The position numbers and the translations under genes are program-made. 64,000 nt of DNA from Cytophagaceae bacterium (GTDB taxonomy: Bacteria > Bacteroidota > Bacteroidia > Cytophagales > Spirosomataceae), in contig SXXW01000020.1 of assembly GCA_005791165.1 (NCBI GenBank), forward strand, positions 1 through 64,000, given 5' to 3'. Under the pieces are notes generated by a model. It made no database searches and was not told the DNA's origin. It saw only the letters and a list, made by a program, of their open reading frames with translations. Below, in pieces: positions 7,754 to 34,628 of the stretch. Positions within the stretch are counted from its first letter, which is position 1, and each line of letters begins with the position of its first letter.

Positions 7754-7954
7754 TTAAAATAACGACCTAATCCTTAATGCAACAGAATGACCATGGTAAA
7801 CTAAATTGATCGTCCTGTTTTTAGGCCATTCGACCAACATTTCTGCTTTGATTTTTTCCAAGTAATTGGCCTTCAAAGCAATTTCTTGTCCATTCAATTG
7901 GGACACAGCAAACATCAGAAAGGTAAAAATCAAGTATCGGAATTTCATGATCAT
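7754..7954 (-). pseudogene. N-terminal remnant of a secreted SGNH/GDSL hydrolase
   Basis: A 66-codon frame with a clear signal peptide (MIMKFRYLIFTFLMFAVSQLNGQ) and the opening of a Bacteroidota GDSL hydrolase (EWPKNRTINLVYHGHSV, where the block I nucleophile motif should lie). The protein then runs into ALRIRSLF and a stop. Reading on in a different frame gives GRYFK followed by a stop, recalling the GYFK-type continuation of intact relatives, so frameshift plus deletion is the best explanation. Catalytic Asp/His blocks are absent. It overlaps the end of the upstream cytochrome gene by one base (TAATG), so it was once a coupled operon member. Confidence 0.6.
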
Positions 7955-10170
7955 TAATTTAAAAAGATTTCATCTACTAGAAGTAATGCTCTTTTATCTT
8001 TAGCCACAGCACGAGTACGTACTCTTGCTTTATCTTTAGAAGCATTCAATTCTGGGATTTTTTCAAGTGGTTTTGCGATGATTTTCATTTCGCTAAATAG
8101 GGTTGGCTTGAATTTTACATCGATCGCATATAACTCGTGGAATCTCGTTTCCTTAGGAACGGGAACTTTAAATACATGAATTCGCTTGAATGTGCCATTC
8201 ACGCTTGTTTTCCCCCATATCTCAATGGATTGAGGTGGGAAAATTCCGGTGGTCAACTCTTCCATAATCCGCAAAGAAACAATGGAAATGGTTTTTAGAG
8301 TTTTGAAATTTAAATTTAACTCCATGTCATTATTTCGTACGCCGGTCCAAAAATTAGCCCATGCAGGAGCATTGGCACTAAAGGTTCCTAGGTTCCGGTC
8401 GAAAAATGATTTTGGCCCATTGGCTTTATGCACCCGATTTAAAGGCAATACGACCGTTACACTATCAGGCGTAATCGCACATTTATAATATTCGAAAACC
8501 GCTTCATCACTTCCGATCCAGCCTGCTTTAAACGCTCTCGCTCTAATTCTTGTGTTTGAATTAATTAAAATATTTCCATTAAAAATAGGAGATTTAGAAC
8601 TGTCGATAGGTGTTCCATCCATCGTATACCGTATCTCAACGCCCTTAATCGTATGGAATAAGGTGAGCGGCGCCTTCGTGTCAAAAATGGTCGATGTATT
8701 TTTTAACTCAGGTGGATTAAGCTTTATGGGGCTTTTACCATCATCTTTAAATCCGCCTATAATTTGGACCGATTTAAATTTAGCCGATAAAACTTTGAGG
8801 TCATCTGTAGTGAGTGGTGTATCCCAAAGATAAATGGCCTGAAGTTTTTTCAATCCTTGCATGGCTATTTGTAAATCTGGGTAATTCATCTGCGTTCCCG
8901 AAAGCGAAATGCTTTTTAAATGGGTTAACTTATTTAGCGCCAAAAGACCTTTAGCCGTAATATTGCTAAAGTTTAATTCCAATCGTTCTAAGTTTTCAAA
9001 TTGGGCGATGGTCAACAAATCCGAATCTTTGACAGGCATTTTAGCTACACTTAGAAAAACGATTTGTTTTTTTATGGCCACTAATTCCTCCAGCTTTTTA
9101 GAATTAAATTCATTTTTATTGAAGATATGAACACGCAAAGCCGGTGAGTTTTTGGCCAGCTTGGCAATCGTTCGGTATTCGTTGGTTAATTCGTCGATGG
9201 TTTCCTGACTCGCTTCTGAAAAGTCATAATTTGTGGCCTCGTCGAGAACAGAATTGAATAAGGTGTTCCCCATGATTCGGAGTGAATCTGTTGCAGGTAA
9301 TTCTAATACTTTTTTAGTAAATGTTGCGTTTCCTTTGATCCAAAGCGATAAAATCATTTTCTCTTCATCGGTCAACTGTGGTTGGCCTGAGACAGGCATG
9401 TGTTTTTTGTCTTCTAAAGGAAGGTGAATTCGCTCTAATAATAGGCTTATTTCAGGTTTCCCAGTGACAAATAATTTGCCAGATTTACCCCCTTTTAAAA
9501 TACCTTGAATAGTAGACAAATCAAGCTCCCCTTTTTTCTTTTCAGGGTTATGGCAGCTCATGCATTTTTTTTCAAAAATAGGCTTGACCATATGATCAAA
9601 AACAATGGCATCTTCTAGGTAGATCTGTTTTCCTTGTTGGAAAGGCTCCAAAACAAAACCATCTCCATGTGTAAGCTCTGATCCAAAATGGCCGGTCGAG
9701 ATCAGTAAAATGGACATGAAGCCTATCAACAATCTCGAGTTCAGCTTTTGGTAAAAGGATAAATTTCTGAGCCAATAGGTTCCACTAAAGACGATAAATA
9801 AAGTAACGGCTGCCCACTTATGCCAGAACAAAGTGTCTCCCGAATAACCAGATTCCTTCGAAAGAAATAAGCCAAAAATAGTAGTTATTCCTGTGAGGGC
9901 CGCGCCTACAATCCAAGCATCAGAAACCCATTGCTCCGCGGTGTTAATCCAAGGGCTAGTTTCTCGGGTAAATCTGAAAAACTCCCAAGCCATTAACAAA
10001 ATCAATAAAACGATTGGGAAATGTAGGACTAGTGGGTGTAATCGTCCAAAAGACTGCAGCCAGTTAGGAACAACGATTTGATCCTCAAAGGCCAATAAAA
10101 ACACTAGAAATACTGCAGATATGAGTACAAATTGTTCAACAATCCCCCTCCATTTTTTATTCATACTCAA
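7954..10170 (-). CDS. DUF2231 membrane protein with c-type cytochrome, leucine-rich repeat and chitobiase-type domains
   Basis: A 738-residue multidomain protein. Residues about 1-180 hold several membrane helices of a DUF2231 type, with the motif GRLHPLVLHFPIVL. One heme c site, CMSCH, lies near residue 202 in a planctomycete-type cytochrome domain ending about residue 285. Leucine-rich repeats occupy about 390-470 (LERLELNFSNITAKGL). A chitobiase/hexosaminidase C-terminal-like module follows (EIRYTMDGTPIDSS), then a discoidin-like tail. It lies in one orientation with DUF1501 and DUF1549/DUF1553 genes upstream, the standard partner set, so it probably carries electrons for their extracytoplasmic oxidation chemistry. 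The substrate is unknown. Confidence 0.8.
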   Translation of the reverse strand: MSMNKKWRGIVEQFVLISAVFLVFLLAFEDQIVVPNWLQSFGRLHPLVLHFPIVLLILLMAWEFFRFTRETSPWINTAEQWVSDAWIVGAALTGITTIFGLFLSKESGYSGDTLFWHKWAAVTLFIVFSGTYWLRNLSFYQKLNSRLLIGFMSILLISTGHFGSELTHGDGFVLEPFQQGKQIYLEDAIVFDHMVKPIFEKKCMSCHNPEKKKGELDLSTIQGILKGGKSGKLFVTGKPEISLLLERIHLPLEDKKHMPVSGQPQLTDEEKMILSLWIKGNATFTKKVLELPATDSLRIMGNTLFNSVLDEATNYDFSEASQETIDELTNEYRTIAKLAKNSPALRVHIFNKNEFNSKKLEELVAIKKQIVFLSVAKMPVKDSDLLTIAQFENLERLELNFSNITAKGLLALNKLTHLKSISLSGTQMNYPDLQIAMQGLKKLQAIYLWDTPLTTDDLKVLSAKFKSVQIIGGFKDDGKSPIKLNPPELKNTSTIFDTKAPLTLFHTIKGVEIRYTMDGTPIDSSKSPIFNGNILINSNTRIRARAFKAGWIGSDEAVFEYYKCAITPDSVTVVLPLNRVHKANGPKSFFDRNLGTFSANAPAWANFWTGVRNNDMELNLNFKTLKTISIVSLRIMEELTTGIFPPQSIEIWGKTSVNGTFKRIHVFKVPVPKETRFHELYAIDVKFKPTLFSEMKIIAKPLEKIPELNASKDKARVRTRAVAKDKRALLLVDEIFLN

Positions 10171-10262
10171 CCTAGCTTAAGATATCTCGCACCACTTTTC
10201 CTGAAATATCCGTTAATCGATATCTCCTTCCCAAATGCTTGAAGATTAATTTTTATGTTTCA

Positions 10263-11693
10263 TTAGGTCAAAAGATCTTGTACTGCTTTTCCTTTTCCAT
10301 CCGGCGTGGTATAGAAAGGTCGTTTTTCAATTTCATATTGAGTATCCGGTTTGATACCTAGGGCATGGTAAATGGTTTGATGAATTCCGTCGATTTTGAC
10401 TGGGTTTATAATGGTCTTGCATGGACGCTCATCGGCTGTTTTGCCATACACGTGACCTTTCTTGATACCCCCACCCCACATTAAAATCGAGCATCCATCC
10501 GTAAAGTGACGATGCATTCCGTAAAACTTAATGTCATTCAGGATTTCAGGTTGTTTCACTTGTTCCTGAACTTTAAGGTCTGGTCGGCCTTCCACCATCA
10601 TATCCCGACTAAATTCACTGGCTAAAATCACCAATGTACGATCCAAATGGCCCGTTTTATCTAAGTCTTTGATCAATTGGGCAATGGGTCCGTCAATCAT
10701 CCGCTTCATTCCTTCTAACCTGGTATGGCCATTTTCATGGGTATCCCAACCGAAAAATGGTTCGTATTCTGTCGTTACACTAATGAATCTCGCTCCTTTT
10801 TCAGTCAATCTACGCGCTAATAAACATCCAAGCCCAAAACGACCAGTGTTATAAACATCATAAATTTCTTTTGGCTCAGTGCTCAAATTGAAAGCCTTTG
10901 ACTCAGGTGAATTCAATAAAATGTAGGCCTGCTCCATGGAACGACGTAAGGATTCTTTTTGGTAATCACTTCCAAATTCTCCATGCGCGCTTTGCGAGAT
11001 TAAATTATTGTATAATTGATTCCGACTTTCAAATCGCTTCATGTCCATTCCCACCGGTGGACGCACACTTTCTAAACCTTGACTAGGATCCGGAATCAAA
11101 AATGGTCCATGCTCATTGCCTAGAAATCCTGCTGTATGAAATGCTTTTAATTCTTCGGCCTCGCCAACGGTAAAGCGTTGACCTATGTCGATAAAGGAAG
11201 GAATAACAGGATTTTTAGGTCCCAATTCTTTTGAAATCCATGCTCCAATGTGAGGTGCGGCTACAGATTGTGGGGGTTCGTAACTGGTATGCCAGTGATA
11301 CTGATGACGAGAGTGAAGTATATGGCCTAAATCTGCAGCCACATAAGACCTAATCACGGTCCCTTTATCCATCACACTTCCTACCGACTGAAGGCCTTCT
11401 GAAAAGTTAACCCCATCGATGGCCGTTGGCATAGATTTGAAGGTACTTAATACCCGATTACCCTCCATTCCTTTTTCATAAGGAGTATATCTTTTCGGGT
11501 CAAAGGTTTCTGTATGCGCCATACCACCGGCCATCCACAACAAAATAACGGTATCTGCTGTGGCCGCTTTTTTGGCTAATGGGCTCGTTGGGTCCGCCAT
11601 TAAACTCGCAATAGGAGAGCCCAAACCCAAAGCTGCTATGGTAGCAGTGCTGGTATTTTGTAAAAACTCTCTTCTATTCCATTGATTTTTCAT
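10263..11693 (-). CDS. DUF1501 family exported protein (sulfatase/alkaline-phosphatase-like fold)
   Basis: A 476-residue DUF1501 protein with an N-terminal export signal (MKNQWNRREFLQNTSTATIAALGLGSP) of twin-arginine type (RREF). Family hallmarks include ADTVILLWMAGGMAHTETFDPK near residue 45, TEYEPFFGWDTHENG, and HLDRTLVILASEFSR. The fold resembles the alkaline phosphatase/sulfatase superfamily, but its biochemical function is not established. DUF1501 genes nearly always sit next to DUF1549/DUF1553 cytochrome proteins, and here the partner ends only 11 bp upstream. The two probably form one exported system, with the cytochrome/LRR gene third in the row. Confidence 0.85.
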   Translation of the reverse strand: MKNQWNRREFLQNTSTATIAALGLGSPIASLMADPTSPLAKKAATADTVILLWMAGGMAHTETFDPKRYTPYEKGMEGNRVLSTFKSMPTAIDGVNFSEGLQSVGSVMDKGTVIRSYVAADLGHILHSRHQYHWHTSYEPPQSVAAPHIGAWISKELGPKNPVIPSFIDIGQRFTVGEAEELKAFHTAGFLGNEHGPFLIPDPSQGLESVRPPVGMDMKRFESRNQLYNNLISQSAHGEFGSDYQKESLRRSMEQAYILLNSPESKAFNLSTEPKEIYDVYNTGRFGLGCLLARRLTEKGARFISVTTEYEPFFGWDTHENGHTRLEGMKRMIDGPIAQLIKDLDKTGHLDRTLVILASEFSRDMMVEGRPDLKVQEQVKQPEILNDIKFYGMHRHFTDGCSILMWGGGIKKGHVYGKTADERPCKTIINPVKIDGIHQTIYHALGIKPDTQYEIEKRPFYTTPDGKGKAVQDLLT

Positions 11694-11704
11694 CGCAATA
11701 AAAA

Positions 11705-14503
11705 TTAAATAATTAATTGAAATTCAGGGAGTAAAGTTACTGCCCACACTAAATCTTGTATCCCTTCCACACTTGGCTTTTTCCCGATATATTTAACCGC
11801 TAAGGTCATTTCTTTAAGACTAGGCTCTCTTCCTAAAGCCTTCAAATATAAGGCTTTAACAAGAGATTCTCCTGTTTGATATTTTTGTGCCCAAATCTCT
11901 GCTCCCTTTCGCAAGGATAAATTGAATTTGTTGCCATTAGTCAATTCCAGCGCCTGAAGTAAATTGGCCTGTGAAATACGGCTAGTGGAAACATTCTCTC
12001 TATTGGGTCTTCCTAAGGCAGTTAAAAAAGGATCGTTTTTGACTAAGGACGCTCGGGCAAATGGAATGTCATTTTTAATATCGGCAGGCAACATTTTTTT
12101 AACTAGAGCCGAATCCGTGTAAAGTGGAAAGAAGGATTGACTTACTGCATCTGCAAATTGTTCTGCTGTAATTCTGCGTTTCATAATTCCTTTGAACACA
12201 AAGTTTGAAGCGGTCAGCATTTGTGATTCTTTAAGACCCATCGCTGGTGTTTGATAGGTTTTAGATATCAAAATTTGTCTCATTAATCGCTTCATGTCAT
12301 ATCCATTCGCTGTAAAGTCAGAAGCTAGCCAATCTAATAAATCTTGACTCCAAGGTTCGTTATCCATCATATCGACTGGCTCCACAATTCCTCTTCCCAT
12401 TAATTGGGCCCACACACGGTTAACCAACGTTCTGTATAAACGTCCATTTTTCTTTTGAACTAAAATATCAGCTAAAGACACTAAGCGCTCTGCGGTGATG
12501 GTTGTTTCTTTTATTTTGCCTAGTGAACTATACAACACCCCATATCCAGCCATGCGGCCTGTTGGCAAATCACAGCGGTGAATTTCTAAGGTTTTGCTTG
12601 AGAATACGTTGGCAAATGCATAGGCGTCGTCCAACTTCCAATCACTGATAAAACTATCATGGCATGAAGTACATTTTAAATTCAATCCTAAAAGGACTTG
12701 GGATACGTTTTGTGCCGCTTGCATCTCAGTGCTTTGACTCGAATTAATGGTTCCTCTCCATTGGATACCTCGTATAAAACCTTCTGATTCTTTGGTCGGA
12801 CTTATTAATTCTTTAACAAAAGTATCATATGGTTTATTGTTTTTTAATGAACCATAAAGCCATTTGGTTATTCCAAAGCGGCCATTCGTAATATACCCCG
12901 TTCCTGAATAATCATTGCGAAGGGCATCATTCCAGAAAGTCAACCAATGTTGGGCATACCCTTCATTGTTGGCTAGGAGTTTGTCAACTAAAACTTCTCT
13001 TTTATTCGGTCGAGTATCACTGACAAAAGCGCTGATGCTTTCTGGGCTAGGTAATAAACCAGTAACATCTAAATAAACCCGTCGAATATACGTTTTGTCA
13101 TCCACGGACTTTTGCCAAGAAATTTTATTCTTCTTGAAATAGTCATTGACAAACAAGTCAATTGGCTGATTTAATCCTGACATAGCTTTAGGAATAGTCG
13201 GCATCCGCGGCTCTAATGCAGCCACTCGATACAAACTTTTTTCTGGACCTGAAGGCCAAGGAGCACCTTGTTGAATCCAGTATTCCAACATAGCTACATC
13301 CTCTTTACTAAGACGCTTGCCTTTGGTTGGCATCGCATCATCATGGCCAAAAGGAAGTTTAACTCGGCGGATCATATCACTTTTTTCAGGATTTCCAGCA
13401 ACTAAAATCGGTCCATTTTCCCCACCTTTAAATATAAATTCTTTTTTGTCTAAGCGTAATCCCCCTTTGGTTTTGGTAGCATTGTGGCAAGCATAACAGT
13501 TGTGGGCCAATATCGATCTTACGTTGATATTTAATTCTTGTAATTGGTTCGCGTTTAAAACCTCTGGTGCCTTAGTTGGCATTTCAGATGTATTCATGAT
13601 TCGATCTTCTGAAGAAGCTGATTTTTTAACCACACTACTATTTTCTTCAATTTTCTCTTCTTGATCGATAGCGGCTGTTGGCGGTGCGGATTTCAAAGCT
13701 ACACCAGGCCAAGGAGCCCCTTGTTTCACCCACAATTCTAATATTTCAATTTCTTTTTTGCTTAACCTTTTACCTTTGGTAGGCATGGCGTCATCATCAC
13801 TTGCAGGAAGTTTAATCCGACGAATCATTTCACTTTTTTCAGGACGGCCAACGACCAAGGCAGGACCTTCTTTACCCCCTTTTAAAACATATTCTAAAGC
13901 ATCTAAGCGTAATTTCCCTTTTGATTTTTTGATGCTGTGGCAATCATAGCAGTGATTTGCTAGGATATTTCTAGCTTCAATACCTAAATCTTGCTTTTGA
14001 TTAAGGTCAATTTCACCTTGTAATTTCTCCTCATGGAGTGAAGGATTCAAAGCAATTTTTTGAGTTTTTTCTTCTTTGGTTAGATCTAAATAGTCTTCTC
14101 CGTGGGTTAACATGGCGCCATAATGCCCCGCAAAACTTACCCCTAAAACAGTTAGAAATAAGAGTAACCGGTAGCTTTTTGTTTCTTTAGAGATGAATGC
14201 ATACAGCGTTAATCCCGAAAAAATAGCGGTTACAATGCCAGACCATTGGTGTATGGTGATGGTTTTTCCTGTGTATTCGTCTTGATTAATTAAAATAAAA
14301 CCTAGGCCAACGGCCAAAGCTGCGGTGATGGTACCCACCCATAATATAATGCCAATGGCAGATTGAAATTGGTCTGATTTTTTTCTCCATGCAATGCATT
14401 CAAGCAATAGACCTACCCAAAGCAAACTAATGGGAAAATGAACGACCAAAGGATGTAGCCGGCCTGAAATTTGCCAAAGTTCGTTAAGTAAATTATTTTG
14501 CAC
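11705..14503 (-). CDS. DUF1549/DUF1553 protein with DUF2231 membrane domain and duplicated cytochrome c domains
   Basis: A 932-residue protein. It begins with a DUF2231-like membrane region of four or more helices carrying GRLHPLVVHFPISLLW. Two planctomycete-type cytochrome domains follow, with heme sites CYDCH near residue 180 and CYACH near 335. Both continue into almost the same sequence (PEKS-MIRR-KLP and DDAMPTKGKRLSK), so they arose by internal duplication. Then come DUF1549 (about 430-640, with a third heme site CTSCH near 608) and DUF1553 (about 680-930, with NRVWAQLMGRGIVEPVDMM). It is the probable multiheme electron-transfer partner of the DUF1501 protein 11 bp downstream. The reaction is unknown; oxidation of a sugar or sugar acid outside the cytoplasm is a guess from neighbours. 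Confidence 0.82.
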   Translation of the reverse strand: MQNNLLNELWQISGRLHPLVVHFPISLLWVGLLLECIAWRKKSDQFQSAIGIILWVGTITAALAVGLGFILINQDEYTGKTITIHQWSGIVTAIFSGLTLYAFISKETKSYRLLLFLTVLGVSFAGHYGAMLTHGEDYLDLTKEEKTQKIALNPSLHEEKLQGEIDLNQKQDLGIEARNILANHCYDCHSIKKSKGKLRLDALEYVLKGGKEGPALVVGRPEKSEMIRRIKLPASDDDAMPTKGKRLSKKEIEILELWVKQGAPWPGVALKSAPPTAAIDQEEKIEENSSVVKKSASSEDRIMNTSEMPTKAPEVLNANQLQELNINVRSILAHNCYACHNATKTKGGLRLDKKEFIFKGGENGPILVAGNPEKSDMIRRVKLPFGHDDAMPTKGKRLSKEDVAMLEYWIQQGAPWPSGPEKSLYRVAALEPRMPTIPKAMSGLNQPIDLFVNDYFKKNKISWQKSVDDKTYIRRVYLDVTGLLPSPESISAFVSDTRPNKREVLVDKLLANNEGYAQHWLTFWNDALRNDYSGTGYITNGRFGITKWLYGSLKNNKPYDTFVKELISPTKESEGFIRGIQWRGTINSSQSTEMQAAQNVSQVLLGLNLKCTSCHDSFISDWKLDDAYAFANVFSSKTLEIHRCDLPTGRMAGYGVLYSSLGKIKETTITAERLVSLADILVQKKNGRLYRTLVNRVWAQLMGRGIVEPVDMMDNEPWSQDLLDWLASDFTANGYDMKRLMRQILISKTYQTPAMGLKESQMLTASNFVFKGIMKRRITAEQFADAVSQSFFPLYTDSALVKKMLPADIKNDIPFARASLVKNDPFLTALGRPNRENVSTSRISQANLLQALELTNGNKFNLSLRKGAEIWAQKYQTGESLVKALYLKALGREPSLKEMTLAVKYIGKKPSVEGIQDLVWAVTLLPEFQLII

Positions 14504-14590
14504 TGCTATGTAATTGTTTAATTAGGCTTTGAAAAGGTAATTAATCGATGTTTCAATGACGATTTACAGTTACTATGAATTTATTTTTTT

Positions 14591-14911
14591 TTAAGGAAGG
14601 TAAAACAATTCAATTAAAGGATGCTCTAGTGGATAATTATCAGGATCTACCTCCATGATATCAGCCATATAATCCAACCATTTGCGAACGACCGGATTAT
14701 TTGGGTTTTCTAGGTTCGGAAGATTCCCGGTTTGCTTCTGATAGGCAAAAAGAAGGTTTGTTTCCCTGTCCAGAAAGATTGAATAATCAGAAACTCCCGA
14801 ATCTTTTAACAGTTTAAGTAATTCAGGCCAGATTTCATCATGACGTCTTTTATACTCTTCTTCGAAACCATCTTTTAACTTCCATCTAATAGCAATGCGT
14901 TTTGTTTCCAT
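14591..14911 (-). CDS. rhaM: L-rhamnose mutarotase
   Basis: A 106-residue cytoplasmic protein matching L-rhamnose mutarotase in length (E. coli RhaM has 104) and in motifs: KRIAIRWKLKDGFEEEYKR, the proposed catalytic His at residue 24 in RRHDEIWPEL, and YSIFLDRETNLLFAY. It interconverts the alpha and beta anomers of L-rhamnose after import so that the isomerase receives its preferred form. It begins 24 bp after the GH78 gene upstream and so is probably the last gene of the rhamnosidase operon. The DUF1553 gene starts 87 bp further on. Confidence 0.92.
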   Translation of the reverse strand: METKRIAIRWKLKDGFEEEYKRRHDEIWPELLKLLKDSGVSDYSIFLDRETNLLFAYQKQTGNLPNLENPNNPVVRKWLDYMADIMEVDPDNYPLEHPLIELFYLP

Positions 14912-14935
14912 GTGTATTTTGTTTTTGACTCGCCG

Positions 14936-19300: not shown

Positions 19301-22084
19301 TTATTGGGCTTGACCAGATAGCTGGAACAGATAATTACCTGAACCAACGTCAAAGGTTACATAATCTTCAGTTTCACTGCCACCGTTTATCCCCAATACT
19401 TTACCAACATATAATCCATCCTTCCACAACGTATTGCCGCTCTCTGTTATGGTGACATTTTTAAGCTGTATCTTGGGAATACTCACCTTGCCCTTGCTGT
19501 TTGTAGGAAGGGTTACTTGCATATCGAGCAAATGATCAGCTACCTTCCAATCGACAGCAATCACCCCTCGGACAGTCTTCAGTGACGCTTTGGCATATGT
19601 CAAATCACCGACTATACATGGCCGGATAATGATCTGTTTGAAGCCAATGTCGCCCCGGCCAATACCGGCCAGGTCTCTGAAGAAAAATATTTCGGTACTG
19701 CCGAACATTTTCATATTCAAACTGACGGTATATGGCTTTTTGCTTTCAATTTCGAAAGCTTCCCAGACCGTAGTAGCTCCTTTTGAAATGGTATAACCCC
19801 AGCTTGGATACGTAGTTTGAGTAGCAATTTTAAACATTACATCAGCTCTGCCCAACTTTCCAAGAACCTGCTCTAGGGCATTTGTTCCTAAAATTCCCGT
19901 GGAAAGATGACCTTCGTTTTTAATCATAATGTCGTCAACCAGATTTGCAAGCACAGCTTTCTCCCTTTCTTTCGGAACTAGACCAAGCTGGAGTGACATG
20001 GCATTTGAGGTCTGACTACCAGTCGAATATTGATTCGTTTCTTTGTTGAGGAATTTCTCGTTGTAGGCTTTTTTGATATTTTCAGCCAGTAAGGAGTAAC
20101 GTTTGTAATCTTCAGTCTTACCGAGAACCTTAGCTACCTGAGCAAGAATCCAGGCGTCGAAATAATAGAATCCGGTTGCAGTAATCTCAGGCGGCGTTCG
20201 TTTCGGAGCAAAATTACTATAGCCTGCTGCACGGTCAGGTTCCATATGGTCACCGAGATCTTTGGCAATTATGTAATTATCTGCCTGTTTACCCAGGAAT
20301 TCTATCAATTTAGCAATTCCATCATAATGGGTTTCTAAAACACGCTCGTCACCATAATACTGATACAAATACCAGGCTACTAGCGGATAAGTACTTTTCC
20401 AAGTAGGCCACATATCATATGTTTTCCGCCAATGTAGCGGGCTAACAACCGGAAGATCACCATCGGTCTTCTGGGAATCCTTAATATCATCAAGCCATTT
20501 GGACCAAAAAGACGCGGTATTTAGAACAAACAGGTAATCTTCCAAATTAAAGCCTGTATCTCCTAGCCAGGCAACGCGTTCACTCCGCTCGGCCGCATCC
20601 TGGGGTATGCCTTGAAGACTACTCTTAAATGTCCATAAAACATTGCTATGAATCTGATTTATTAATTTATTGGAACTCTCAAAACTGCCGCTTGTCTCAA
20701 CTGCGTTATATACAAAACGCCCTTCGAGGTTCTTTAAAGTTGGCGTACCAGGGAATCCAGTTACCTCAACATATCGAAATCCGTGAAGTGTAAATCTAGG
20801 CTCCCACACCTCTGTACCTTTCCCATTTAGCGTATAAGTATCAGTCTGTGTTGCAACACGCTGGTTTCTTGTGTCGAGACGCCCGTCATCATACAGTATC
20901 CCTGCATATCTCATCTTTACTTTAGTACCTTCGGGGCCGCCCACACTTAGTTTGGTCCAACCTGAAAAATGCTGACCGAAATCATAAATGTATACCCCCT
21001 TTTCTATCTCTGTGATCTTAATAGGCTTCATATTCTTAATAACTTTGACAGCGGGCAATATCTGGGCAACCATTTTACCCGATGGAGGAGCAACAACACC
21101 AGCATTAGCCCATTTTGAATCATTATAGCCAGGACTATCCCATCCAGTCATTTCTAGCCGGGCATCGTAATCTTCACCAAGGCATATCTCATTAGCTCTG
21201 ATAGGACCATCGGAAACCTTCCATTTATCTTCAGAAACGATGCTCTCTATTCTTCCATCAGTGTATTCTATATCCATTTGCAAACGAAGAATTGGAGTCT
21301 TTCCAAATGACTGCCTTCCAATTAATTCCTTTCCTAATACTCCTTCATCATTACTGTACCATCCATTTCCCAGCATAACACCCAGTGCATTTTGACCCTT
21401 TTGCAAATATTCTGTTACATCATGGGTAACGTATAATACCCGGGTACCTAATTCAAATGGCTGGTCATTATTGTAGTAGCTTGTCGCCGGATCTAGAACA
21501 TGGTCGCTTACCTTTTTACCGTTAATATAAAATTCGTTCCAGCCAAGACCTGATATATACGCCTTGGCTCGCTTTATACTTCCGGAGATGGCAAACTCCC
21601 TGCGTAAAAGAGGAGAGGAAATGGAGGAGTCGGCTCCAATCCATTGCCCCCGCCAGTCACTTTGTTTCAATAGTCCCATTTCAAATGTAGCCGGCTCACT
21701 GAATGCTCCCGCCTTACCATTCTTATCCCAAACGCGTACCTTCCACCAGCATTTTTCACCACTCTTTAGTTCCTTGCCCTGATAGACCACGGTGACCGAT
21801 TGGTCGGAGGCCAGCTTTTTACTGTCCCACTTGTCACCTTTCCCTTTAGAGAGGTTCTCTAGACTGCTCGCAACAAGGATTTGATAAGCCGTCTGCATCT
21901 GTCCACGCTGGGAAGATGTCAGGATCCAACTGAATCTTGGCCGTTGCGTTTCCAATCCTAGAGGATTTTCAGTATACTCACATCTGATCTCAAATGGAAA
22001 AAGAACTTGACTTTTTTTCACTACCTGAGCAAGAGATGCTACCTGAGTAAGCATCAGCAGGATTAATACATTTTTGAATTTCAT
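19301..22084 (-). CDS. Secreted alpha-L-rhamnosidase, GH78
   Basis: A 927-residue GH78 enzyme with signal peptide (MKFKNVLILLMLTQVASLAQ). It has the same domain order as the paralogue at 14936-17704, with which it shares GQMQTAYQILVASS-type and GLGWNEFYINGKKVSD-type segments. The catalytic motifs are nearer the family consensus: AERSERVAWLGD, with the probable acid Glu near residue 502, and GATTVWE, with the base Glu near 775. It removes terminal alpha-L-rhamnose. It is the first complete gene after the decayed fecR remnant at 22142-22390, which suggests that this block was once controlled by a sigma/anti-sigma pair. The gap to the isomerase-like gene downstream is 121 bp. Confidence 0.92.
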   Translation of the reverse strand: MKFKNVLILLMLTQVASLAQVVKKSQVLFPFEIRCEYTENPLGLETQRPRFSWILTSSQRGQMQTAYQILVASSLENLSKGKGDKWDSKKLASDQSVTVVYQGKELKSGEKCWWKVRVWDKNGKAGAFSEPATFEMGLLKQSDWRGQWIGADSSISSPLLRREFAISGSIKRAKAYISGLGWNEFYINGKKVSDHVLDPATSYYNNDQPFELGTRVLYVTHDVTEYLQKGQNALGVMLGNGWYSNDEGVLGKELIGRQSFGKTPILRLQMDIEYTDGRIESIVSEDKWKVSDGPIRANEICLGEDYDARLEMTGWDSPGYNDSKWANAGVVAPPSGKMVAQILPAVKVIKNMKPIKITEIEKGVYIYDFGQHFSGWTKLSVGGPEGTKVKMRYAGILYDDGRLDTRNQRVATQTDTYTLNGKGTEVWEPRFTLHGFRYVEVTGFPGTPTLKNLEGRFVYNAVETSGSFESSNKLINQIHSNVLWTFKSSLQGIPQDAAERSERVAWLGDTGFNLEDYLFVLNTASFWSKWLDDIKDSQKTDGDLPVVSPLHWRKTYDMWPTWKSTYPLVAWYLYQYYGDERVLETHYDGIAKLIEFLGKQADNYIIAKDLGDHMEPDRAAGYSNFAPKRTPPEITATGFYYFDAWILAQVAKVLGKTEDYKRYSLLAENIKKAYNEKFLNKETNQYSTGSQTSNAMSLQLGLVPKEREKAVLANLVDDIMIKNEGHLSTGILGTNALEQVLGKLGRADVMFKIATQTTYPSWGYTISKGATTVWEAFEIESKKPYTVSLNMKMFGSTEIFFFRDLAGIGRGDIGFKQIIIRPCIVGDLTYAKASLKTVRGVIAVDWKVADHLLDMQVTLPTNSKGKVSIPKIQLKNVTITESGNTLWKDGLYVGKVLGINGGSETEDYVTFDVGSGNYLFQLSGQAQ

Positions 22085-22141
22085 AAGTTTATTATTTATT
22101 ATTTGTATTTACTATTTGTGGTGGAGAAGAGTTTCGGATCG

Positions 22142-22390
22142 ACTTTCATAACAATAATTCAAAGTCGAGCTTCCTCTATCAATTTTGCAAATTAAGGATT
22201 TTCAATAGTTCATTCGCTCCAATTTAAAAGATTTTTATTCCCTTTTATTCATTTTTTAAAAGACTCATCTGATAAAAAATTTTCTACCTTTTCGTCCGAA
22301 TTTTGTTTCCTCATCTGCATTGTTTTTCAAATATGGAGAGGCCAAGAATTAATTTTGGTACTCAATAAATTGTACTTTTTTTTAAAATTT
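22142..22390 (-). pseudogene. Decayed 5' end and leader of a FecR-type anti-sigma gene
   Basis: This otherwise empty stretch is an imperfect copy of the start and leader of the intact anti-sigma gene (33767-34015). Shared blocks include 23 identical bases (22258-22280 versus 33883-33905), ATTCGCTCCAATTTAAA, and AGTCGAGCTTCCTCTA. On the minus strand the old ATG is at 22320, and translation gives FLSDESFKK-stop-IKGN, LNWSE-stop-TIENP-stop-FAKLIEEARL, matching the intact protein but with at least three stops. The homology covers about 60 codons plus 70 bp of leader and then ends. No sigma gene accompanies it. It marks an old duplication or recombination point inside the rhamnose locus. The rest of the gap (22085-22499) holds nothing else recognisable. 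Confidence 0.85.
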
Positions 22391-22499
22391 GTACGATGTA
22401 CAATCAATAGTGAATTTCTATTCATAAGACTATGGATTGAATGTAGGTATCATCTTTATATTTATATTTCAGTATCACGTTTTGATATTATCACTCCAC

Positions 22500-23546
22500 T
22501 TAAGCAATAAATGATAGATAATTGCCGTAAGCCATCACCACGACAGAAAGTATAAGTACAAGAATGCCAATAATGATCATTGTTACAGTACGCTTGCTGC
22601 TTCCTTTGAACTCAAGAGTAATCCATCCCCACATGGTACTGAAAATAATTATAAATACCAGGTGGATGCTAAAACTTACGAAATCATTTTTACCCATTTT
22701 AGTTATTCCCATCCCATAGAACAGGAACTCAAGGTAAGCGATAATACCAGCCTCCGCACAAAAAAGGTAATTGATCCAAATTGAGGCATCTCCGCCATGC
22801 CAATAATTACTTATACTCTTATTCTTGATGTTCATTGCCAAACATAAAATCGCATTGGAAATAAAACTACCTGCCGTTATGAAAACGAGACCAACATTGT
22901 TTTTCCATAATTCAGAGATGCCATGTTTCACCGCAACATCAGCTATTGGCTTACTGGCGTCAAAAGCAAATGTAAAACAAGCACTCAATATTCCAGAGAG
23001 GACTGTAACAATGATTCCTTTTTTGAAATTATATTCTTTTATATATTTCTGTTTATTGTCGGGGGATGAATCGTTCTCTTTTAATATCCCAGCAAATCCG
23101 GCTAAAAAAGTTCCGATTATACAAACAACCAGGCCCGCCATTATAACCTGACCGGAGAGACTCCGTATCAGGCTCTGAAATGTTCCCATAAAAATTGGTG
23201 GAGCAAGTGTACCAGCAATATGCGTCATACCCAAAGCAATTGCCATGCCGAGAGACATTCCCAGGTAGCGAAGAGAAAGCCCAAAGCTGTGGCCTCCTAT
23301 CCCCCATAGCATTCCAAAAATAAATGTCCATAGAATACTGAGGGGAGGAGACTCCCTAATGATAATCAAAAGATTGGGTATGGTAAAAGCAGCAATCAAG
23401 CAAGGCAGGATGACCCAAGTAAAAAAACCAGCAACAATCCAATAGCTTTCCCACGACCAATTTCTTACCTTCCTGAAAGGCAAATAGAAACTAGCTCCTG
23501 CAAAACTCCCAATAATATTTAAAAAGATTCCTAAGACATACTCCAT
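22500..23546 (-). CDS. rhaT: L-rhamnose/proton symporter RhaT
   Basis: A 348-residue inner-membrane transporter with about ten hydrophobic helices, close in length to E. coli RhaT (344). Family-like segments are GSFAGASFYLPFRKVRNWSWESYWIV at the N-terminus, MLWGIGGHSFGLSLRYLGMSLGMAIALG in the middle and SIHLVFIIIFSTMWGWITLEFKG near the end. It imports L-rhamnose with a proton. It ends a run from the SusC/SusD genes through the 798-residue protein and the isomerase-like gene, only 19 bp after the latter. It carries rhamnose released in the periplasm to the cytoplasmic mutarotase and isomerases. Confidence 0.92.
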   Translation of the reverse strand: MEYVLGIFLNIIGSFAGASFYLPFRKVRNWSWESYWIVAGFFTWVILPCLIAAFTIPNLLIIIRESPPLSILWTFIFGMLWGIGGHSFGLSLRYLGMSLGMAIALGMTHIAGTLAPPIFMGTFQSLIRSLSGQVIMAGLVVCIIGTFLAGFAGILKENDSSPDNKQKYIKEYNFKKGIIVTVLSGILSACFTFAFDASKPIADVAVKHGISELWKNNVGLVFITAGSFISNAILCLAMNIKNKSISNYWHGGDASIWINYLFCAEAGIIAYLEFLFYGMGITKMGKNDFVSFSIHLVFIIIFSTMWGWITLEFKGSSKRTVTMIIIGILVLILSVVVMAYGNYLSFIA

Positions 23547-25221: not shown

Positions 25222-27618
25222 TCAATTTTCTGTAACGCTCACCTTTACGAGATTCTTGTCGTGTTTGAGTTTGAGTAAAAGTAGTCCGTCAGCATTCGCT
25301 TTCCAGCCCTCCTGGACAGTGTCAAGATTATCAGCCCGGGCAAGAACACGACCGGCTTTTCTGACCTCGGTGTTGGGTCCAAGGCCGGCGACCGTCGCAT
25401 AGCTAGTTTCGCCGATGGGATATTCCAGCTCAAATGAAGCGCCACGGCCCTGACTGGCTAGTATGGTGGATTTGAGAATGGCGGCAGTGCTGACATGAAT
25501 GCGTTTGCTGTCTGTCTGCAAAACTTTGCTATTGATATCTACTCCCTGGCCGCGCATTAGAAAGATTCCCTTCATATACAATTCCGGCTCCCACCCAGGG
25601 CCAGCTAATTCATTCGTTATAAGATCTAGAGCATCCGCTACCAATCCCTTTCTCTCGCCGCCCCCAACCATTATCATTTGCTCAATGCCGCTATCCATTA
25701 TTCCTTCGCCAATGGCGCGCCACGGTAAACTCTGGTCGTATTCGGCCAGTTTGAGGATCCAGTATCCGTAGGGAAAACCGCACCATTGCACCGGCCTACC
25801 AAACCATTCAATGACGTTATACCACGTGGTTCCCAAGCAGGCGATCGTGCCGAACTTCATGACCGGTCGGTCCGGAGCTTTCCACATATACACAAATGGA
25901 ACACCCGTTTTCGCCCAGTATTTGGCCTTCTCAAGATACTGCTTCTCACCGGTAATCTCATAGGCCTCCAGAGAGCACCAGACATGTAAGCCTGCAGCCT
26001 GGATATCGGGTGCGTACTTGGGAACCTCCCAGGTATTCATACCGCGGGGCACAACAAACCGATCCATATATTGCAGTCCCTTTAGTCCTGCCTCCAACGC
26101 CCGCTGATCACCCGTTATACGGGCATACATCAAAACGCTACCAACCAATTCTACCATCGTTCCATCGACAATATCATCGCCCTGCCTGATCCTTTCCGTC
26201 ATGTCGCCAAGGTATGCCCAGCTGCCATCATCGCGCTGCTTATCAATGAGTTCTTCATAGACACGCTTTTTCCAAGCATCGAGGCCGTCTTCCATGTACC
26301 CGATGTAAAACGGCAACAAATGGTTGCGAACGGCACAACTGGCGGGAAATTTTGTACTAAAAGGCAAATCACGACCGTCAAGCCAGTCGGTCAGCCCCTT
26401 AACCCCTTCCCGTTCCAGCGCCTTGTTCACCATTAAGTCAACACGGTCTCTTATCATCTTCTTTTTGGCCGGATCTTTGACATCCAGAGACAAACGCCAC
26501 AAAAGTGCGCTTGGGCCAGGTGCTGGATAGGCTGGAGAAATTTCCCAAAGCTTTGTACCCTGGGCCTTCGCATCGTAAAGGGTTTCCATGTAACCTATCC
26601 GCGCCGTTTCCAGCGCTTCGTCATAAGTTATTGGGAGTTTAATTTTCTCTGGCATACCATAGACAGCCAGGTAGTGGTCAATCATATTGAGCACTTTAGC
26701 GTTAGCCTCCGCTACGATATGAGCTTCAATTTCGATCTTGTTATTTGCCTTGAGGGGATAAGCCTTTTTGGTAGCCCGGGTACCGTTCTCTGGTACAAAC
26801 TCAGGTATAGACGGCAGGAACAGACCCATCAAGTGGTTGTTCTGCTTAGAATCGAGATTAGGCGAGGCAAACCTGGCAGCAGTAGTCACATGTTCACCAT
26901 CCCACTTTTGCAGCATATCCCACATCACGCCAATTAAGCATTTATCTGCCTCGACAGCCATAAACGGTATGGTAATTTTATATGGATGCGGCGCATAGCG
27001 ATTGGCAAACTTTGGACCATTATCACGGTCGGATGACGACTTTTCGTGTGCTTCAAGATATTCCAGCCCAGGGAAAACAGCCTGATGCTTGCGAGTTCCA
27101 AAGCTGCCTTCGCCAGCATACAAGGTAGGCCCCTGAAAGTATAGCAACTGCCTGTCTTTGTTGGCCCAGGCCTGGTAGTTAGTCTTAACTGTCTGTTTTC
27201 CCGATTCAATCTCAAAAGTATAGACGAAATTCCAAATGGCATCGTCCTCATCAACCCTTTCGGCTGAGAATCGTACCTTCGCGAGAGGCCCGCCAGATTT
27301 AAGAATCTCATATTTGGTCGGAATAATGTTGGATTCAAAAGTCTTGCCGCTTGCAGTACTGTAGGCGACTTGGCCGATTGGCCGACTGACCGCCATCTGC
27401 CGCCATTGGTTGCCGTCATTAACCGAAATGACAGCAGCAGTATAGCCGGCCTTGCTTCGTTTAAAGACCATGCGGACATTCTGGTTCTCGAGGATGAGAT
27501 TCTCGTCCGCATCAATCCTTACTACAGCCGCTTTCTGAGAATAGCCGGCAATGGAAAAACTAATCAAGAAAAACAGAAACCCCCCCAGATTCTTTAAAAA
27601 ACGTTTGTAATCTTTCAT
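25222..27618 (-). CDS. Exported protein of unassigned family, probable glycoside hydrolase or polysaccharide lyase
   Basis: A 798-residue protein with signal peptide (MKDYKRFLKNLGGFLFFLISFSIAGYSQ). I cannot place it in a named CAZy family. The first 300 residues look like a beta-sandwich (NQNVRMVFKRSKAGYTAAVISV). The next 350 or so are helix-rich with toroid-like repeats (DGSWAYLGDMTERIRQGDDIVDGT, AGLHVWCSLEAYEITGEKQYLEKAKYWAKTG), as in (alpha/alpha)6 or (alpha/alpha)7 glycosidases and lyases. The last 100 residues look beta-rich. Candidate acidic and aromatic residues are plentiful but no catalytic motif is certain. Its place between SusD and the isomerase/RhaT genes, and a base composition visibly richer in GC than the flanks, support a transferred enzyme acting on the same glycan. 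Confidence 0.7.
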   Translation of the reverse strand: MKDYKRFLKNLGGFLFFLISFSIAGYSQKAAVVRIDADENLILENQNVRMVFKRSKAGYTAAVISVNDGNQWRQMAVSRPIGQVAYSTASGKTFESNIIPTKYEILKSGGPLAKVRFSAERVDEDDAIWNFVYTFEIESGKQTVKTNYQAWANKDRQLLYFQGPTLYAGEGSFGTRKHQAVFPGLEYLEAHEKSSSDRDNGPKFANRYAPHPYKITIPFMAVEADKCLIGVMWDMLQKWDGEHVTTAARFASPNLDSKQNNHLMGLFLPSIPEFVPENGTRATKKAYPLKANNKIEIEAHIVAEANAKVLNMIDHYLAVYGMPEKIKLPITYDEALETARIGYMETLYDAKAQGTKLWEISPAYPAPGPSALLWRLSLDVKDPAKKKMIRDRVDLMVNKALEREGVKGLTDWLDGRDLPFSTKFPASCAVRNHLLPFYIGYMEDGLDAWKKRVYEELIDKQRDDGSWAYLGDMTERIRQGDDIVDGTMVELVGSVLMYARITGDQRALEAGLKGLQYMDRFVVPRGMNTWEVPKYAPDIQAAGLHVWCSLEAYEITGEKQYLEKAKYWAKTGVPFVYMWKAPDRPVMKFGTIACLGTTWYNVIEWFGRPVQWCGFPYGYWILKLAEYDQSLPWRAIGEGIMDSGIEQMIMVGGGERKGLVADALDLITNELAGPGWEPELYMKGIFLMRGQGVDINSKVLQTDSKRIHVSTAAILKSTILASQGRGASFELEYPIGETSYATVAGLGPNTEVRKAGRVLARADNLDTVQEGWKANADGLLLLKLKHDKNLVKVSVTEN

Positions 27619-32838: not shown

Positions 32839-33939
32839 TTATTTACATCCATTTGAAATTATTTTAATATAGTTGCCATTCATCTCATAGCGGCTATTAT
32901 TGCCCAAACTTTCACATATAATTTTCAACTTTTCAGGTAATGGTACATCGATTAATGATGTAGTCAGATAACATTCTTTCAATTTGTCTTGTGGAAAGTC
33001 GATGGTAATCAAATAGGCCTGTTCTAAGGTTTTAAAGATTTGTTTAACAGGGATATCCTTAAAATCGAAGCTTAATTGCTCCATCGTATTTGTCGAAGCT
33101 AGTAAAGGTTTATCTTGTGTGATATCCAATATTTTTTCAAAAAGTTGTTCTTTTCTAACAAACCTGGCCGCTTGGTTAGGTAAAAGCATGACTTCTTCTA
33201 AAGTGGCATTGCGAATATTTTGATTTGAACTCACTTTTACTTTACCCGTACGCACCAATACTTGAACGTTTGGTTGATTCGCATATGCGATAACCCTAAA
33301 ACTTGTTCCATATACTTTCGTGACAGTTTCATTAGCATAGACATAAAAGGCTCTATTTTGATCTTTGCTAATTTCAAAAAAGCCTTCACCAGAAAGATAA
33401 ATTTTGCGTTCATTTCCTGTAAATATTTTAGGATAACTAAGTTTACTATTGGGCTGAAGTAAAGCAGAACTTGCATCAGATAATGTAATGAGTTGGGGTT
33501 TATCCGAATTATTGGTTTGTTCAATTAACCCATTTGAATCACTTTTGATCAACTCTTGATAAGTAATGGTTGTAATTTGAGTACTTGACAAATTAGCGTA
33601 ATATAAAAGTGCAGCCAAACCCACAACAAAAACGGCAGCTGCAGTTCTAAACCAGGTATTATGCCAAATCAATTTATCAGGACGCTCCTCATTAGACCGT
33701 CCGATTTTTTTCCAAACTTTTTGAAGTGACTTTTGTGTTTCTTGATTAGTTAAGGGTGTCTGCTCAACTTTCATTCCGATAATCCATAGTCGAGCTTCCT
33801 CTACCAATTTGGCACGATATGGATTTTCCACAGTCCATTCGCTCCAATTTAAAGGATCATCATTTCCTTTAACCCATTTTTGAAAAGACTCATCTGATAA
33901 AAAATCTTCTATATTCTCGTAGAAATCTCGTTTTTGCAT
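32839..33939 (-). CDS. FecR-family anti-sigma factor
   Basis: A 366-residue inner-membrane regulator. The N-terminal cytoplasmic part (1-95) binds the sigma factor and contains FLSDESFQKWVKGNDDPLNWSEW. A single membrane helix follows (about 97-116, AAAVFVVGLAALLYY), then the periplasmic FecR domain (LITLSDASSALLQPNSKLSYP, VYGTSFRVIAY) and a C-terminal STN-contacting region with DUF4974-type FDFKDIPVKQIFKTLEQAY. It holds the ECF sigma factor until SusC signals that ligand is bound. Its 5' end exists as a decayed second copy at 22142-22390. The sigma gene ends 74 bp upstream. Confidence 0.93.
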   Translation of the reverse strand: MQKRDFYENIEDFLSDESFQKWVKGNDDPLNWSEWTVENPYRAKLVEEARLWIIGMKVEQTPLTNQETQKSLQKVWKKIGRSNEERPDKLIWHNTWFRTAAAVFVVGLAALLYYANLSSTQITTITYQELIKSDSNGLIEQTNNSDKPQLITLSDASSALLQPNSKLSYPKIFTGNERKIYLSGEGFFEISKDQNRAFYVYANETVTKVYGTSFRVIAYANQPNVQVLVRTGKVKVSSNQNIRNATLEEVMLLPNQAARFVRKEQLFEKILDITQDKPLLASTNTMEQLSFDFKDIPVKQIFKTLEQAYLITIDFPQDKLKECYLTTSLIDVPLPEKLKIICESLGNNSRYEMNGNYIKIISNGCK

Positions 33940-34015
33940 TTGTATTGTGTTTTCAAATATAGAGAGGCCACGAATTTATTTTGGTACTCACGAAATTGAA
34001 CTTTTTTTTTAAATT
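33767..34015. repeat. Intact member of an imperfect direct repeat (fecR 5' end and leader)
   Basis: The first 60 codons of fecR and its leader match 22142-22390 in the same orientation with few gaps, by eye about three quarters identical, including one 23-base identical block. The two copies bracket an 11.6-kb block holding rhaT, the second isomerase-like gene, the 798-residue protein, susD, susC and most of fecR. This suggests tandem duplication or recombination at this site. Confidence 0.8.
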
Positions 34016-34628
34016 AATTTAAGGAAAAGTTCAAGAGTAGAAATAAAACTGAAATTGGGAAATCTTTACGGAGCTGAAGAATCGCCCGATGAATAAGATT
34101 TTTTGTAGACTGGTAATTTAAGTTTAGCACTTCAGCTACTTGATCGACCGCAAGGCCATATTGGTAACGCAAATAAATGGCCTCCTTTTGTCGATCCGAA
34201 AGCTGATTAATGCTTTTATTTAATTGTTCCACTTTTTTAGCTGTTGTCTCATCAGCTATCAAGCGGTCTTCAATGGAAAAATCAAATAAAAATTCTAGGG
34301 AATCAATGTTTTTGATATTTGAAAAAATATGTTCGCGATGATGAAGCCTAGCTATTCTCTTTCGTACACTCGAAAGTAAATACGCTTTAACTAAGATGGC
34401 CTCATTTAGTTTGTATAGTTTATAGCGATACGTCCAAATATTAACAAATACATCTTGTACGCAATCCTTTACTCGATCTTCTCCAGTCATTAACGTTTTA
34501 CCGTAATTAACTAGCGTACTATAATACCTTTCAAATAACGAGGAAAATGCCTCTTCGTTTCCCAACCTTAATTGGTTCCAAAGTGCGATATCACTTGAAT
34601 TATCCTTACGTTTTCTTAATTCATTCAC
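34014..34628 (-). CDS. ECF RNA polymerase sigma factor (sigma-70 family)
   Basis: A 204-residue ECF sigma factor of the Bacteroidota FecI-like group. Region 2 spans about residues 25-95 (EEAFSSLFERYYSTLVNYGKTL, VKDCVQDVFVNIWTYR). Region 4 spans about 135-190 (NQLSDRQKEAIYLRYQYGLAVDQVAEVLNLNYQSTKNLIHRAI). No region 1 or 3 is present. It would drive transcription of the susC locus when released by the FecR protein encoded 74 bp downstream. The start ATG at 34628 follows an AT-rich 284-bp gap shared with a divergent amidohydrolase gene. Confidence 0.93.
   Translation of the reverse strand: MNELRKRKDNSSDIALWNQLRLGNEEAFSSLFERYYSTLVNYGKTLMTGEDRVKDCVQDVFVNIWTYRYKLYKLNEAILVKAYLLSSVRKRIARLHHREHIFSNIKNIDSLEFLFDFSIEDRLIADETTAKKVEQLNKSINQLSDRQKEAIYLRYQYGLAVDQVAEVLNLNYQSTKNLIHRAILQLRKDFPISVLFLLLNFSLN

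Follow-up and report, generated by a model that had tools for sequence, protein, structure and literature searches.

A decayed partial duplicate of a sigma-fecR leader upstream of a GH78 rhamnosidase operon: a candidate propagated ECF-type promoter

Results

Structure of the duplicated unit

The window, that is, the whole 64,000-nucleotide stretch of DNA analysed here, corresponds to positions 1-64000 of contig C14 in a genome assembly (G000) of 2.57 Mb and 84% completeness. All genes from an ECF-type sigma factor to a GH78 rhamnosidase lie on one strand, and a short decayed sequence is found just upstream of the rhamnosidase. The relevant features are as follows.

34014..34628, minus strand: ECF-type sigma factor, 204 aa (Pfam Sigma70_r4_2, Sigma70_ECF)
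33940..34015, minus strand: intact sigma-fecR leader, source-type copy
33960..33987, minus strand: ECF-type promoter-like core before the intact fecR, zero mismatches
32839..33939, minus strand: intact fecR-type sigma regulator, 366 aa (Pfam FecR, FecR_C)
22389..22403, no strand: palindrome TTGTACGATGTACAA directly at the copy's upstream edge, the only exact copy in the own genome; may be chance
22127..22389, minus strand: partial duplicate (the remnant) of the sigma-fecR leader and the first ~62 fecR codons, 81% identical to 33752-34015 and tested with a shuffle control
22315..22389, minus strand: copied leader, non-coding, identical at 64/73 positions to the window fecR leader and at 62/75 to the fecR leader on contig C21
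22334..22361, minus strand: ECF-type promoter-like core of the remnant (GTACC at 22357-22361, CTCTCCA at 22334-22340), one mismatch
22129..22314, minus strand: dead fecR start, 62 codons, stops at codons 22, 35, 41 and 52
19301..22084, minus strand: GH78 alpha-L-rhamnosidase, 927 aa (GH78-927; Pfam Bac_rhamnosid domains), first gene downstream of the putative copied promoter

A search of the whole own genome matched the remnant (22127-22389, minus strand) to 33752-34015 with 81% DNA identity (E 1.6e-66); both pairs of borders were set by repeat finding and BLAST and are approximate. The original prediction, a decayed direct copy of the fecR start and leader carrying in-frame stops, was thus upheld by this match and by the four stops. 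The alignment of the two 249-bp segments that it had proposed as a check gave the same answer. The local alignment contained 204 identical columns out of 249 with 1 gap and scored 271, while 500 dinucleotide shuffles reached a mean of 22.4 (sd 3.0) and a maximum of 35. The copied unit of ~263 bp comprises the 75-bp intergenic leader between sigma and fecR and the first ~62 codons of fecR. It starts at the stop codon of the sigma gene and ends near fecR codon 62.

The prediction had further called the remnant the only sizeable gap in the locus, and this did not hold: a gap of 432 bp (14504-14935) separates the second GH78 gene from a PSD1 gene. Nor is the pair of copies unique. A third copy lies at C21:191403-191667 in the own genome, 80% identical to the remnant. 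It forms the beginning of an intact fecR paralog with 93% protein identity to the window fecR, preceded by its own sigma gene (88%) and followed by a susC gene that is cut by the contig end. The SusC paralog there (L005, G000:C21, 9725-10880) is close in DNA to the window SusC over its first ~130 residues, after which the similarity drops; the contig ends inside the gene. The remnant was about equally far from both intact copies and did not discriminate between C14 and C21 as donor. At the sites where these two differ, it sided with C14 at 7, with C21 at 4 and with neither at 1 in the leader, and at 5, 5 and 2 in the coding part.

The palindrome at the upstream edge (TTGTAC-N3-GTACAA) was rejected as a shared operator, having one exact site in the own genome and, at up to 2 mismatches, 2 sites in the window where 2.1 were expected. 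A phage origin was likewise rejected, with no match in 50,697 phage records.

Decay of the fecR fragment and state of the leader

Read in the fecR frame, the remnant runs for 62 codons without an indel and is 60% similar to the intact fecR over codons 1-62 (E 6.8e-17). The frame is disabled by three TGA codons and one TAA, which replace three TGG and one TAT. Reading TGA as Trp was ruled out: one of the in-frame stops is TAA, the 798-aa gene of the locus ends in TGA, and 18 of the 20 window genes checked end in TAA.

The two parts of the copy differed in their divergence. Over codons 13-62 the remnant differed from C14 at 28/150 positions, compared with 3/150 between C14 and C21 (p = 1.5e-6), a contrast that gene conversion between C14 and C21 may have inflated. 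The leader of the remnant differed from that of C14 at 9/73 positions, and that of C21 at 12/74 (p = 0.64). These comparisons indicate that the coding tail has decayed and that divergence of the leader does not exceed that seen in an intact copy. Within the remnant itself, the leader (9/73) and the coding part (40/186) differed at a borderline level only (one-sided p = 0.061). The substitutions fell on codon positions 12/9/19, and a uniform distribution was not rejected (p = 0.14).

The promoter-like core

The leaders share a core of the form GTACCAAA-N9-TNNNCTCTNTA. GTACC and CTCT.TA, about 16 bases apart, have a shape that we take to resemble ECF promoters, and the leader core looks like a promoter of an ECF sigma factor, a prediction from sequence comparison. 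The remnant retained 14 of the 15 specified bases, with the mismatch in the second box, and within the window only the remnant and the site at 33960 matched the core at up to 2 mismatches. Two features count against the promoter reading: the leader of the intact C21 copy departs from the core at two positions, and the core of the remnant lies ~250 nt upstream of the GH78 start codon. Ordinary sigma-70-type boxes between 21950 and 22650 were at chance level (4 found, 3.7 expected).

Across 38 genomes of the genus, the core at up to 1 mismatch had 23 matches, and its reversed control had 12. Exact matches numbered 13, namely 6 sigma-fecR leaders, 6 kelch/PSD1 sites and one site in G018; the pattern had in part been built from them. 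The 10 one-mismatch matches comprised the fecR leader of G012, the remnant, a PSD1 site in G032, and 7 located elsewhere. A narrower pattern had 11 exact sites in 8 of the 38 genomes and 0 in the reversed control. A pattern search of the own genome at up to 2 mismatches gave 8 matches, and the control 9. Since the patterns were drawn partly from the sites then found, these counts are not independent tests.

The same core was found between sigma and fecR, upstream of the partner gene of the sigma factor, in two distant families, one represented by C14, C21 and G012, and the other by C8, G025, G026, G029 and G032. In the C8-type family, whose sigma and fecR were 35-38% and 30-32% identical to the window proteins (tblastn), the boxes and their spacing are shared. 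At sixteen loci belonging to other fecR families, no such core site was present.

Recurrence of the leader in the genus

A search of 99 genomes with the remnant gave matches in 12, the own genome included. Eight same-genus genomes (G004, G009, G010, G012, G018, G026, G029, G032) had short matches to the leader only, and the matches in G025, G042 and G094 were short and apparently unrelated. In seven genomes (G000, G004, G009, G010, G026, G029, G032) the leader occurs at one and the same junction between a kelch gene and a PSD1/cytochrome cluster, the PSD1 side being cut by the contig end in G026. The leader precedes a DUF1501 gene in G018 and is again a sigma-fecR leader in G012. Pfam supports the kelch, PSD1/PSCyt1 and DUF1501 labels for the cluster on contig C34 of the own genome and the DUF1501 label for G018; the kelch/PSD1 labels in the other genomes rest on the same protein starts.

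The sites at the kelch/PSD1 junction and before DUF1501 imply that the leader has been redeployed without fecR. Promoter-like DNA of this kind therefore precedes non-homologous genes, namely fecR, GH78, the PSD1 cluster and the DUF1501 gene, as in propagated promoters. Three of the genomes with a redeployed site, G009 (79% complete), G010 (98%) and G018 (92%), had no fecR of either family at E <= 1e-20, which counts against the promoter reading.

At the kelch/PSD1 site the putative promoter is flanked by a direct duplication of ~25 bp of the kelch 3' end (ATGGAATATCTACAATGGTAATTT; L004 1440-1620, L013, L018, L019, L020), possibly a mark of promoter insertion or duplication. In the window, PSD1, DUF1501 and DUF2231/PSCyt1 genes follow the GH78 genes (7954-14503), a gene set like that after the same putative promoter on C34.

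Gene context and origin of the GH78 gene

The interval separating the copy from GH78 is free of genes, and a search of its GH78 strand for a TANNTTTG box found none. Upstream of the copy, at the end of rhaT, there is a weak indication of a terminator-like hairpin (1 found, 0.2 expected). The 798-aa gene of the locus (25222-27618) had no Pfam match at E <= 0.001. Its GC content is 49% and its GC3 53%, against a GC3 of 27-39% for the neighbours from rhaT to sigma, and it may be a recent arrival.

The best match of GH78-927 in the 38 same-genus genomes was 36% identical (E <= 1e-50), the own second GH78 (41%) being set aside, and that in 222 family genomes was 42% (E <= 1e-200). None of these genomes held a close relative that could represent the state before the copying. 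One scan of GTDB r220 contigs, of low sensitivity since exact 8-residue matches were required, found two relatives, both in Planctomycetota MAGs (62 and 69%). GH78-927 grouped with these two sequences in a 22-row tree with support of 100/100; the other branches were long and the sampling thin. The two GH78 proteins were the only ones among 17 window proteins with matches in the Planctomycetota loci (L129 and L130), and L130 has only 271 bases upstream of its GH78 match. The GH78 operon was probably acquired, judging from these comparisons, and the grouping with Planctomycetota fits the arrival of genes that need a promoter.

The closest version of the locus is in G004 (91% complete). Relative to the window, its amidohydrolase is 87% identical (128 residues), sigma 90%, fecR 89% from codon 67, susC 94% and susD 91%. 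The gene order is amidohydrolase, GH32 and sigma, with fecR, susC and susD on another contig. The GH32 gene (L141, 985-2559) lies between the amidohydrolase and sigma, where the window has none, so different enzymes accompany the same regulatory core in the two genomes. G004 has this core and no GH78 match; the sigma-fecR-susCD core therefore looks older in the genus than GH78. The ends of the sigma contig (C324, L141) and the fecR contig (C104, L095) leave out ~33743-34002 in window terms, which agrees with the repeat unit to within ~12 bp. This hints that the unit is repeated in G004 as well; a second copy was not found in the assembly.

Discussion

We lean towards the view, as the most economical one, that the remnant is a copied promoter placed ahead of an acquired GH78 operon and retained for that role, with the fecR tail as a fossil of its source; its promoter function is predicted from sequence. 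The sequence shows that a ~263-bp piece of leader plus 62 fecR codons was duplicated, by tandem duplication and deletion or by ectopic copying, to the site directly upstream of GH78. It also shows that the coding tail then decayed and that the promoter-like core stayed almost intact. Either the sigma factor encoded here or that of the C21 paralog would still recognise the core, and the GH78 operon, probably acquired, would be turned on along with susCD when the sensor detects its glycan. The partly decayed copy thus probably survives as an on-switch for GH78, tied to the nearby sugar-sensing regulator. That the genome has three related versions of the unit, counting the remnant, supports this explanation. 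The decayed duplicate also marks duplication or recombination in the assembly of the locus, in agreement with the original prediction.

A serious alternative, given the borderline constraint test, is that the remnant is an inert scar, a partial duplicate left by recombination that has no present function, with GH78 read through from the upstream operon. For example, the 11.6-kb block may have been duplicated in tandem and most of the second copy then deleted. We consider a scar, by whatever route, a real possibility, if a somewhat unlikely one. In its favour, all genes from sigma to GH78 share one strand, the leader constraint is borderline (p = 0.061), and the spread of substitutions over codon positions does not depart from uniform (12/9/19, p = 0.14). 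However, the core keeps 14/15 specified bases, the copy contains the whole leader, and the leader has been redeployed elsewhere in the genus. The original prediction went in another direction and proposed that the GH78 block was formerly under a sigma/anti-sigma control of its own. The piece does have the right orientation and place upstream of GH78 to be the relic of a complete second pair, but no trace of sigma was found beside it, which makes this reading weak. A tblastn search with sigma over 22085-22560 gave a best E of 0.27 over 13 residues, a DNA search with the fecR start plus sigma matched only the remnant stretch there, and the homology starts at the sigma stop codon. Moreover, the best-kept part is the leader, which recurs in the genus as a promoter-like element, and none of the 38 genus and 222 family genomes had a close GH78-927 relative with such an arrangement. 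A complete pair at this site therefore appears very improbable.

Instead of acting as a sigma promoter, the leader could bind a dimeric transcription factor or form a structured RNA leader, a reading to which we give little credence. The cores of the C14/PSD1 type do form an imperfect inverted repeat: across the 7 strings examined, 5-10 of 13 positions pair about one axis. However, four C8-type strings keep the asymmetric GTACCAAA and CTCT boxes while their symmetry at the same axis is 4-5/13. As for an RNA leader, 8 sequences yielded no consensus structure, and the window had no Rfam match.

The duplicated-promoter explanation can be extended to a broader one, which we offer as speculation and regard as rather unlikely as a whole. 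The leader might be a recurrently copied control cassette of the genus, wiring newly arrived operons, such as the GH78 rhamnosidase and the PSD1/cytochrome clusters, into one glycan-sensing ECF regulon. The GH78 copy might at birth also have made a soluble FecR fragment of ~70 residues that bound sigma, since the 62 codons roughly correspond to the FecI-binding segment of FecR; this is impossible today, the fragment being dead.

How an acquired enzyme gene gained its regulation is usually invisible afterwards. Here the copied putative promoter carries a piece of its original gene, so that its source can be read. If it is functional, it shows a way in which one partial duplication could bring further enzymes under a sugar-sensing sigma circuit in Bacteroidota, and the core would offer a specific candidate motif for the promoters of a set of ECF/FecR systems.

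Several known systems bear comparison. In the FecI/FecR cell-surface signalling system, as outlined in the available part of PMC9249621, sigma, fecR and an outer-membrane transporter gene likewise stand in a row. Residues 9-59 of E. coli FecR bind FecI according to that text, and the 62 copied codons roughly cover this segment. The present case differs in that the copy can no longer yield a protein and sigma and fecR are separated by a promoter-like core. Bacteroides SigW-1 resembles the proposed circuit in that one ECF sigma factor controls glycan genes outside its own cluster, in a distant PUL, whereas the accessible portion of the report does not describe promoter duplication (PMC12596196). 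The same excerpt gives a TGTT motif near -10 for ECF-linked promoters of Bacteroides thetaiotaomicron; the window core does not match it, which counts against the promoter reading. Duplication can turn on an acquired gene, as described in a study in which tandem duplication activated horizontally transferred genes (PMC11111574). That work concerned laboratory selection for copy number, whereas here a natural partial copy lies beside an apparently acquired gene. Among the titles listed in searches of open-licence PMC papers, none concerned a promoter copy tagged with fecR. There is also a likeness to mobile or propagated promoters of prokaryotes (Matus-Garcia et al. 2012 and van Passel et al. 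2014, as cited in the parts of PMC9208149 and PMC8049555 available to us), in which short promoter sequences are repeated before different genes. The present promoter-like element differs from these accounts in being apparently ECF-specific and in having one copy tagged with part of the original gene, fecR. Promoter propagation as such is already known, and this locus is apparently a fresh example of it, with an apparent alternative-sigma promoter and a fossil of the source gene.
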